A program made the translations under genes and the position numbers. From Phycisphaerales bacterium (lineage in GTDB: Bacteria; Planctomycetota; Phycisphaerae; Tepidisphaerales; Tepidisphaeraceae), in assembly GCA_020847375.1 (NCBI GenBank), contig JADLCB010000019.1, forward strand, positions 124,001-188,000: 64,000 nucleotides of DNA, given 5' to 3'. The first letter of the stretch is position 1. Each line of letters starts with the position of its first letter. The notes beneath the pieces were generated by a model. The model saw only the letters and a program-made list of their open reading frames with translations. It was not told where the DNA came from and did not search any database. Positions 40,059 to 42,846 of this stretch are shown here, piece after piece.

Positions 40059-40379
40059 TGGCAATATCCTCGTAATTAGTGTGGGGCTAGGTTAACACAA
40101 AGAGGCTTGGGATGGCAGTAGTTGTTCGTCGCGACGGGATTGATCGATGGGATCAGGCGATTCGGCAGGTGTGTTGATACGATTCGGTTGCGGCGCGGGT
40201 GACCTGCCTTGGAGCAGTGTTGCCCCCGGCAGCCAATGGCCACATGGTTCGGCAGCGGTCGGCGTGCTGGTTGACAGATGACGGCTGGGGGAATATCACT
40301 AAAGCAGTTGGGAACCAGGTTGGCTGTTGTAACCGGTGCAATAGCCACGACAGAGCTTTTACAGAATCAGAACACAAAT
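40059..40379. other. Divergent intergenic region, frr / TPR-alphaCTD gene
   Basis: About 320 bases with no supported gene. An in-frame ATG at 40278 would extend the TPR protein by 34 residues that look unlike its domains, so I left it out. No clear promoter boxes seen. Confidence 0.5.
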
Positions 40380-41288
40380 ATGACTGAGCTTAGTACGGCG
40401 ATTAACGAGCGGGCCTCTGAAGAATTCTATAAAAAGGCGCTCGACGCGGAAAAAGACGGAAATTACGGAAAGGCTGTGGATTTTTACGAGCGCGCGCTCA
40501 GTGAGAATCCGGATCATGAAAACGCCTGTTTTCGTCTGGCGGTTTTGTACGATCGTCAGGCGGATGATACGCAGGCGATTGAGCTGTACGAGCGGCTTTG
40601 CTCCGGTTCGCCGGTCTATCTCAATGCCTTGGTGAATCTGGCTATTTTGTATGAGGATAATGCCCATTACGAAGAGGCGCACCGTTGTCTCAAGGCGGTG
40701 TTGCAGACGAACCCCAATCATCCCCGCGCCAATTTGTTCATGAAGGATGTCGATTCAGCGCGGTCGGTCTCTCTGGAGGAGGATATTGACCGTAATGACG
40801 GGCGTCGGGACATGATCCTGGATATTCCGCTTACGGATTTTGAACTGACGGTTCGCAGCCGCAATTGCCTGAAGAAAATGAATCTGAATACGTTGGGCGA
40901 TCTGCTGCGCACCACGGAGCAGGAATTGCTGACGTATAAGAATTTTGGTGAAACCAGCCTGAGTGAAATCAAGGCGCTTCTGGCCAGCAAGGGATTGCGC
41001 CTGGGTCAGGCGGCGGATGAGGGCGATGGTGATTCGATGGCGCGACGGCCGACATCGATCGGCGGCGACGTGCCGGATGAGATTCTCAACAAGAGTGTCA
41101 ACGATCTGGAATTGAGCGTTCGCAGTCGCAAGGCGCTGCAGCGCTTGAATATCAACACGGTTGGCGACCTGGCATCACGGACTGAAGATGAGCTGCTGGG
41201 ATGCAAGAACTTCGGCCAGACCAGCCTCAATGAGGTGAAACAGCAACTGGCGACGCTGAGTCTGAGCTTGCGTAAGCTCGACGATTAA
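40380..41288 (+). CDS. TPR protein with two RNA polymerase alpha-CTD-like domains
   Basis: 302 residues. Three TPR-like units occupy about residues 13-114 (FYKKALDAEKDGNYGKAVDFYERAL; ACFRLAVLYDRQADDTQAIELYERL; ALVNLAILYEDNAHYEEAHRCLKAVL). After an acidic linker come two copies of the RNA polymerase alpha C-terminal domain. Copy 1 (149-210) reads DFELTVRSRNCLKKMNLNTL, very close to E. coli alpha; R159, N162 and C163 match the UP-element-binding R265, N268 and C269, but K298 is Thr. Copy 2 (240-296) keeps the arginine (R248) but has Lys for N268. Both end in FGETSLSEIK or FGQTSLNEVK. It is not RpoA itself since the assembly domain is missing. It may dock on promoter DNA or RNA polymerase. Ends at a hairpin followed by TTTT. 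Confidence 0.88.
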   Translation: MTELSTAINERASEEFYKKALDAEKDGNYGKAVDFYERALSENPDHENACFRLAVLYDRQADDTQAIELYERLCSGSPVYLNALVNLAILYEDNAHYEEAHRCLKAVLQTNPNHPRANLFMKDVDSARSVSLEEDIDRNDGRRDMILDIPLTDFELTVRSRNCLKKMNLNTLGDLLRTTEQELLTYKNFGETSLSEIKALLASKGLRLGQAADEGDGDSMARRPTSIGGDVPDEILNKSVNDLELSVRSRKALQRLNINTVGDLASRTEDELLGCKNFGQTSLNEVKQQLATLSLSLRKLDD

Positions 41289-41658
41289 ATAATAAGGTTG
41301 TCCATTGACCGCAGGCGACTGTCGAGGCTCCATCCCAGTGGCGGATACCAGGAGCTGAAAACAGTCGCCTGTTTTGTTTATATTATTTTGTTTTGTCGAC
41401 GCGGCGATGGACGCATTGCATCGATCAATACGAATTATATCGATTGGATAGGTGAGACATTTTCTGGAAAAGCACGAAATTAAAACCTACGATTGGCTGA
41501 ACAGTTGAACGGAACGAAAACAGCCCCGGGAATCAACAGCGGGAGTCCGTGGCGAATGCCGGCGGTGATAAGCAGCGCGTTAATTGTCATCGCAGCGCAA
41601 TCGGTTACAATTGTTTTGTAGGTCGATAATCAGAGAAGCTAAGACAGGCTGGATAAAT
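41289..41658. other. Intergenic region after TPR-alphaCTD gene
   Basis: About 370 bases. It contains the long hairpin at 41312-41375 and an AT-rich stretch to 41480. The short frame at 41298-41483 spans the hairpin and has no protein-like features, so no gene is called. Confidence 0.6.
41312..41375 (+). terminator. Terminator-like branched hairpin
   Basis: A perfect 11-base stem, CAGGCGACTGT and ACAGTCGCCTG, encloses a 38-base loop with an inner 5-base pairing GCTCC/GGAGC, and is followed by TTTTG. The T-run suggests termination; the long loop is unusual for a simple terminator. Confidence 0.6.
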
Positions 41659-42846
41659 ATGTTAAAGACACTTGATCAGAAATTACAGCGGATTCACGCT
41701 GATCCAACGGGCAGCAAGGATTTTATTCTCGCCGATGCCAAGGATGCAGATATGGCTGCGGGCATGGCAGCACCGGGCGTGGATGCACGAACACGCAAAA
41801 TGCGTTCGCTGGCGGAATACCGGCAGTTGATGCGTGATGTTGTGAAACAGGGGTTGGTGGACATCATGCTGATGTCAGCCAGCAGCAGCGAGCAACTGAC
41901 GATCCAGGAACGTTTGTTCGACTCGTCGGCGGTTACGCCGGCCTGTCGCGCTAATGACACCACGGATATCCACCTGATGACAGGGGGTATTGCCCCGACT
42001 GAGCCTTCGCGGCCGTTCCGTACTGCCACGATTGACCAGATTCAAAGCGCGCGGGTCAATCCCACGCCCGAACAGCGCCGACTCGGTGCCAACCTTGGGT
42101 TATATTCGATTACGCCGAATAATCAGGTGGAATTTGATTACCCGATGATCGAGGCGTATCGCGAGTTCCGCATCGAGGCTGAGATCAAGGGATTTCGGCA
42201 TTTCCTGGAAATTTTTGATCCCAACGCCTGCGGCGAAGCCTGCCCGGAGGATATGGGCCGGTATATCAATGATCTGGTTGCCCGAACATTGGGCGGCGTG
42301 CCGCGCGCCGGCCGGCCGATCTTTCTGAAGATGGTTTACCACGGGCCTAAGGCACTGGAAGAACTGGTGACCTACGATCCGCATTTGGTGGTGGGGCTTT
42401 TGGGCGGTTCCAGTGGTACGACGCTGGATGCCTTCAAACTGCTGGAAAATGGGCGTAAGCATGGTGCGCGGGCGGCGCTGTTTGGGCGCAAGATCAACAA
42501 TAGTGAAGATCAGTTGACGTTCATTCGTTTCCTGCACACGATCGCCAGCGGGCAGATCGGTGCGGTTGAAGCGACCAAGGCGTATCATGGTGAGTTGCAG
42601 AAACTGGGTATCACGCCCTATCGCAAACTGGAAGATGATCTGCAAGAGACGGTGACGGTCAGCAGTTACGCGGGAACCAGCACGACGGTGGTTGTCAAAC
42701 CGGGTGGTGCTGATAAAGCCAAAGCGGATGGCGTCGCGATCGGGAATGCGAATCTGCCGACCCGTGCTGATGGGACACCGGACTTTTCCAAAATGAGCCT
42801 GGCGCAGAAAGTGGCGTATAACCGTCAGCGCATCGCGCGAATTTAG
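41659..42846 (+). CDS. Aldolase-like TIM-barrel protein, function unknown
   Basis: 395 residues from the ATG at 41659. I do not recognise a named family. The C-terminal half has a barrel-like strand pattern: GFRHFLEIFDPN, IFLKMVYHGPKALEEL, HLVVGLLGGSSGTTLDAFKLL and GARAALFGRKINNSEDQL. The GGSSGTTLDAF stretch and the following LFGRKI resemble the phosphate-binding end of class I aldolases (DeoC, LacD-like), and the Lys of FLKMVY could be a Schiff-base lysine. The N-terminus has DFILADAKDADMAAGM and LVDIMLMSASSSEQL, also aldolase-like. The C-terminal tail after residue 340 is low in conservation (SSYAGTSTTVVVKPG). Single gene with its own terminator. Sugar or keto-acid metabolism is an inference. 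Confidence 0.7.
   Translation: MLKTLDQKLQRIHADPTGSKDFILADAKDADMAAGMAAPGVDARTRKMRSLAEYRQLMRDVVKQGLVDIMLMSASSSEQLTIQERLFDSSAVTPACRANDTTDIHLMTGGIAPTEPSRPFRTATIDQIQSARVNPTPEQRRLGANLGLYSITPNNQVEFDYPMIEAYREFRIEAEIKGFRHFLEIFDPNACGEACPEDMGRYINDLVARTLGGVPRAGRPIFLKMVYHGPKALEELVTYDPHLVVGLLGGSSGTTLDAFKLLENGRKHGARAALFGRKINNSEDQLTFIRFLHTIASGQIGAVEATKAYHGELQKLGITPYRKLEDDLQETVTVSSYAGTSTTVVVKPGGADKAKADGVAIGNANLPTRADGTPDFSKMSLAQKVAYNRQRIARI

Follow-up and report, generated by a model that had tools for sequence, protein, structure and literature searches.

A gene at positions 40380-41288 of the forward strand in the window (the whole 64,000-nucleotide stretch of Phycisphaerales DNA that was analysed) was found to encode a 302-residue protein that joins three TPRs to two copies of the RNA polymerase alpha C-terminal domain (alpha-CTD; here CTD1 and CTD2). 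Judged from sequence comparison, this TPR-CTD gene is a core gene of the Planctomycetota, present almost throughout the phylum, and the constraint on CTD1 is stronger than that on the CTD of RpoA. That an extra copy should be conserved more strongly than the CTD of the polymerase suggests an as yet undescribed transcription co-factor. Studies of the alpha-CTD have treated it as a part of RNA polymerase; in this case, an entire phylum retains two more of them on a separate scaffold.

Domain layout and structure models

The open frame runs from 40278 to 41288 on the + strand, and the protein was taken from the ATG at 40380. A start near this codon is backed by the orthologue alignment, in which 71 of 81 rows have Met at position 1. 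The features are as follows.

40380..41288, +, TPR/tandem alpha-CTD protein, 302 aa (stop included); Pfam and PDB matches, orthologues throughout Planctomycetota
40419..40724, +, three TPR repeats, about residues 14-115; three Pfam TPR_2 stretches, model helices
40725..40817, +, capping helix and linker, residues 116-146; model helix 115-147, alignment conservation
40818..41009, +, alpha-CTD copy 1, residues 147-210; Pfam, alignment, model
41010..41084, +, flexible linker between both alpha-CTDs, about residues 211-235; low pLDDT, variable in alignment
41085..41273, +, alpha-CTD copy 2, residues 236-298; Pfam, alignment

Pfam RNA_pol_A_CTD (PF03118) matched twice (E 7.2e-43, 144.6 bits against a cut-off of 23.8), and each copy passed this cut-off when scored singly. 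TPR_2 matched in three stretches (E 1.5e-14, 53.3 bits against a cut-off of 27). In a sequence search of the PDB, alpha-CTD entries aligned at residues 135-216 with E values of about 1e-15 and others at 229-301, while TPR proteins matched about residues 8-118. The open frame, Pfam and the PDB search therefore bear out the architecture that had been read from the letters alone. The same is true of the reported absence of an alpha N-terminal assembly domain (alpha-NTD). None was found in the protein with Pfam or NCBIfam, only the TPR part precedes the two CTDs, and the NCBIfam RpoA models were matched through their C-terminal part only, below cut-off. The N-terminal domain for dimerisation and beta/beta' assembly that RpoA requires is therefore missing.

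The count of three TPRs is valid for the source genome. About 153 residues precede CTD1 here, compared to about 280-310 in most other classes, where the N-terminal TPR region is longer. Helix A of the third TPR is closed by a near-invariant Glu-Asp pair (E92 in 81/81 aligned proteins and D93 in 79/81), which is present at the same site in at least 121 of 139 fusion proteins. The capping helix and linker at residues 116-146 carry the conserved motifs R-A-R-L-F-x-K-D and M-x-x-D-E-D.

An AlphaFold model of the whole protein (mean pLDDT 85) showed ordered TPRs and two ordered alpha-CTDs. Helices were placed at residues 2-25, 29-42, 47-59, 63-75, 81-93 and 97-110, with a long capping helix at 115-147, and residues 216-228 were disordered (pLDDT <50). 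The TPR part resembled the consensus TPR 1na0 (TMt 0.88), as expected of a helical solenoid. Since Foldseek searches with the whole protein were swamped by TPR matches, the CTD tandem was modelled separately with AF2 (AlphaFold; mean pLDDT 77). The best PDB matches of the tandem were RpoA chains. A single domain superposed on the DNA-bound alpha-CTD 1lb2_E with an rmsd of 0.9 A (TM 0.93), on 1z3e_B with 1.0 A (TM 0.93) and on 8y5t_A2 with 0.7 A (TM 0.92), so the likeness to alpha-CTD first noted by eye extends to the predicted fold.

Distribution and conservation across the phylum

A contig scan returned 259 relatives, and the best 80 of the 259 were nearly all titled planctomycetes or Phycisphaerae-type groups. 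The exceptions among these 80 were two contigs titled 'uncultured bacterium' and one titled Vicinamibacteraceae (WYBR01000125.1). The latter has a typical planctomycete orthologue, and its bin is probably mislabelled. A 27-row profile was then searched against 294 Planctomycetota genomes with a completeness of at least 90%, and 292 of them matched at E <=1e-20. The clear cases number 291, all at 1e-60 or better (the weakest at 1.5e-61); genome G083 was left out of these because its match of 2.4e-21 could be reached by RpoA alone. Two genomes were missed; in one of them, G023, a 73-aa open frame contains part of an alpha-CTD, so this miss may reflect a gap in the assembly. The match was clear in about 94 of 101 nearer relatives, some of which are incomplete, and of RpoA strength only in seven. 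Within the Planctomycetota, where the family search suggested with the original prediction was run, the fusion is thus near-universal. Plasmid and phage collections gave only partial, rpoA-like matches.

The gene stands beside an intact RpoA. RpoA was above cut-off in all 30 genomes tested, and that of the source genome is encoded elsewhere, with an intact CTD that has R, N and C at 265, 268 and 269. Loss of the RpoA CTD was rejected as a reason for the gene, as the RpoA match reached the C-terminal end of the model in 29 of the 30 genomes; the sole exception was G023, whose short match lies close to the start of a contig. In 51 of 59 genomes, PF03118 occurs exactly three times, once in RpoA and twice in the TPR-CTD protein. 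Separately, an 822-aa open frame in G015 (C19:17212-17898) has three further weak alpha-CTD-like repeats, and additional weak copies were seen in G013 and G026.

The alpha-CTD residues that contact DNA, sigma and CRP were established by E. coli genetics and by structures such as 1lb2. Positions were numbered from the E. coli alpha-CTD sequence, with reference letters identical to those of a deposited E. coli record. This alignment confirmed that R159, N162 and C163 of CTD1 are the equivalents of R265, N268 and C269. Together with N188, G190, S193 and E196 they leave the contact set intact, which predicts a complete DNA-contact surface on CTD1. D153 and E155 correspond to the sigma-facing D259 and E261.

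These residues recur in the 139 fusion proteins, a sample weighted towards Phycisphaerae. In CTD1, R265 is kept in 100%, N268 in 97%, C269 in 96%, N294 and G296 in 100%, S299 in 98% and E302 in 100%, and the sigma-facing D259 and E261 in 97% and 98%. Position 298 (K298 in E. coli) is mostly Thr, as it is in planctomycete RpoA. The basic residues R267, K271 and K272 of CTD1 are all absent from RpoA. Both copies have a conserved Met or Leu at position 273, unlike RpoA (Glu in E. coli). The full triplet at 265, 268 and 269 was found in CTD1 of 130 of 139 orthologues, and N268 was kept by 19 of 23 matched genomes spread over the phylum (the exceptions being G001, G008, G010 and G025), so most orthologues retain the Arg and Asn contacts of copy 1. 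A few lineages alter N268 or C269 (CTD1 reads 'RTRTALKRM' in G001 and G025), which suggests that a complete set of contacts is not strictly necessary.

CTD2 does not have the full set. Its residues here are R248, K251 and A252, in agreement with the original prediction that copy 2 keeps the arginine and not the asparagine. Over the 139 proteins, R265 is invariant, 268 is Lys in 74% and Arg in 21%, and 269 is mostly Ala. It had also been proposed that the two copies may differ in DNA binding. Because the Asn is replaced by a conserved basic residue, binding by CTD2 is more likely to be altered than lost.

Constraint was compared in the same 23 genomes, matched for RpoA, which give 253 pairs that are not independent. 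Mean pairwise identity was 0.67 for CTD1, 0.53 for the RpoA CTD and 0.46 for CTD2, and CTD1 exceeded the RpoA CTD in 218 of the 253 pairs. CTD2 decays in a few lineages: the copy of G007 is without the N-F-G-x-T-S motif, and three genomes of one genus (G066, G125 and G145) have just two PF03118 matches each. These identities and losses suggest tight constraint on CTD1 and loose constraint on CTD2. A tree of 98 domains, coarse because it has only 62 columns, agreed with the identity figures in that CTD1 branches were short and RpoA branches longer. Every CTD1 fell on one side of a branch (95/98), along with one long-branched viral row, and CTD2 was grouped with weak support (82/47). From this grouping, CTD1 and CTD2 probably separated before the radiation of the phylum.

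Phage copies of CTD2 and possible roles of the protein

In five viral contigs (L173-L177), short open frames carry one alpha-CTD, about 70 residues long, at their C-terminal end. The frame of L173 (3999-4219) encodes a stand-alone mini-protein, as do those of L175 and L177, and these three were nested inside planctomycete CTD2 in the domain tree (95/99). When the L173 protein was compared with 195 planctomycete genomes, it matched CTD2 of the TPR-CTD protein best, with up to 61% identity. Two phage contigs share an arrangement in which a terminase large subunit gene lies about 1 kb away (phrog_675, E 1.8e-55 and 4.5e-54). Open frames in L185 and L186 also group with CTD2 and have longer flanks. 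These copies give the clearest indirect hint that CTD2 makes contact with a target worth controlling. In five other viral contigs (L178 and L180-L183), frames of about 130-320 aa contain an alpha-CTD-like region that is divergent and not close to CTD2.

We infer that the TPR-CTD protein binds DNA and contacts RNA polymerase. The evidence is consistent with the suggested role as an UP-element binder or a bridge to the polymerase, and we see about an even prospect that it acts as a phylum-core transcription co-factor supplying alpha-CTDs in trans. CTD1 would enter the A/T-rich minor groove with its Arg265, Asn268 and Cys269 equivalents, as the RpoA alpha-CTD does at UP elements, and its D259 and E261 equivalents could face sigma region 4. 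CTD2, with Lys or Arg at 268 and on a flexible linker, would add affinity of altered specificity or bind a protein. The TPR groove, with its acidic pair, may hold a basic segment of a partner, either RNA polymerase or a regulator. Overall, many promoters would gain additional, UP-element-type recruitment of RNA polymerase. This reading is favored by the near-invariant 265 determinant of CTD1, the fold matches to RpoA and the near-universal presence of the gene beside intact RpoA. The mini-proteins near terminase also count for it, as they are expected if the domain is worth hijacking. Some points count against it. Folds of the helix-hairpin-helix type, to which the alpha-CTD belongs, can also serve in other contacts with DNA or proteins; the neighbours of the gene in the ancestral order are ruvCAB, tgt and sec genes and not transcription genes; and N268 or C269 is altered in the few lineages mentioned above.

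A bolder form, which we put forward tentatively, is that a universal and possibly essential trans-acting factor took over part of the UP-element and sigma role of the RpoA CTD. This would have freed the RpoA CTD to drift, and phages would employ a CTD2 taken from their hosts to seize or block host transcription. If the role is as inferred, planctomycete promoter recognition could not be explained from the holoenzyme alone. The question is directly testable in genetically tractable species such as Planctopirus limnophila, and the phage-borne copies offer a natural probe of the same system.

Another possible explanation, which we consider unlikely, is that the protein is a competitor or decoy. 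It would occupy UP-like DNA, sigma region 4 or the activator surfaces of the RpoA CTDs and so lower or redirect transcription, with the TPR groove sensing or binding a signal partner. Its DNA surface and its 261/287-type surfaces are as in RpoA, without an assembly domain, and the CTD2-like mini-proteins of phages have a form suited to a competitor. However, a pure antagonist would be less likely to be so nearly universal and to evolve so slowly.

The alpha-CTDs could instead act only as protein-protein adaptors that dock the polymerase to another machine without binding DNA. The alpha-CTD is known to dock Spx or NusA, and complexes with Spx (1z3e and 3gfk) were among the structure matches. 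The conserved Met or Leu at 273, unlike RpoA, may mark a new interface, and the decay of CTD2 in some lineages, such as G007, would also fit. We find this improbable, since no class of residues in CTD1 is conserved better than those that contact DNA. The C-terminal repeat of NusA, which binds the alpha-CTD in E. coli, was above cut-off in none of 21 genomes (the source genome and relatives), with a weak match in one. It was rejected as an E. coli-like partner, making a NusA route of the E. coli type less likely.

Gene neighbourhood and relation to known proteins

A gene with a Pfam SpoIID domain lies on the same strand, at most about 360 bases 3' of the TPR-CTD gene, in 57 loci, with tgt, yajC and secD next in line at many of them (neighbour names other than SpoIID were read from sequence). 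On one strand of L129 (5563-12869), the order is TPR-CTD, ruvC, ruvA, ruvB, queH, spoIID, tgt and yajC. L128 has TPR-CTD, ruvA, ruvB, queH, spoIID, tgt and yajC. In L118, L123 and L126, ruvA directly follows the TPR-CTD gene, and in L116 it is followed by tgt and yajC. These orders suggest that the gene probably once headed a ruvCAB-queH-spoIID-tgt-yajC housekeeping cluster, with the L129 order likely to be the ancestral one in the phylum. The arrangement is gone in the window. Upstream, the opposite strand carries a gene resembling ribosome recycling factor. Directly downstream, where most relatives have the SpoIID-domain gene, the open frame at 41584-42846 (420 aa) had no Pfam match. In many bacteria, yebC adjoins ruvC upstream; replacement of yebC by the TPR-CTD gene was rejected, as YebC was found elsewhere in 38 of 40 genomes.

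The position directly upstream of ruvC-ruvA-ruvB or ruvA-ruvB in deep lineages (L129, L128), and next to ruvA in three others, raises the idea of a recombination or repair accessory whose alpha-CTDs bind DNA structures and whose TPRs dock Ruv or other repair proteins, the least probable of the readings considered, because Phycisphaerae and Planctomycetia keep the gene beside spoIID and/or tgt-yajC-secD without ruv (so that the ruv link looks like a remnant of a general housekeeping cluster), the sequence and structure matches point to RpoA, and the sigma-facing D259 and E261 would be kept without an obvious reason.

One of the known proteins closest to the co-factor proposed above is RpoA. The fold of the RpoA alpha-CTD (PF03118; PDB 1lb2, 3n97, 9zum) is common to both, with about 40-56% identity over one domain, and copy 1 shares its DNA-contact set and sigma-facing residues. 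In contrast to RpoA, the TPR-CTD protein has tandem CTDs on a TPR scaffold, no alpha-NTD, and Lys or Arg at 268 in copy 2, and it comes from a separate gene beside an intact rpoA. The component domains are not new, and genes of this kind are presumably annotated in public databases as encoding TPR or alpha-CTD-containing proteins. No description of the protein or its domain architecture was found in the open-access literature, and the accessible portion of an essential-gene paper on P. limnophila (PMC10632474) does not mention it. An alpha-CTD-like module without an alpha-NTD is also present in PRK07758 (NCBIfam, a 95-aa hypothetical protein), BREX PglW and the RpoC form PRK14906. Their models align with the CTDs of our protein, all below their cut-offs, and, judging by the models, none combines TPRs with tandem alpha-CTDs. 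In Streptomyces, the SARP activator AfsR likewise has a TPR domain and is linked to the alpha-CTD, which is part of its activation complex (PMC10936776; PDB 8hvr). It has a SARP domain of its own for DNA binding, and the alpha-CTD that it meets is that of RpoA, whereas the TPR-CTD protein itself carries alpha-CTDs.
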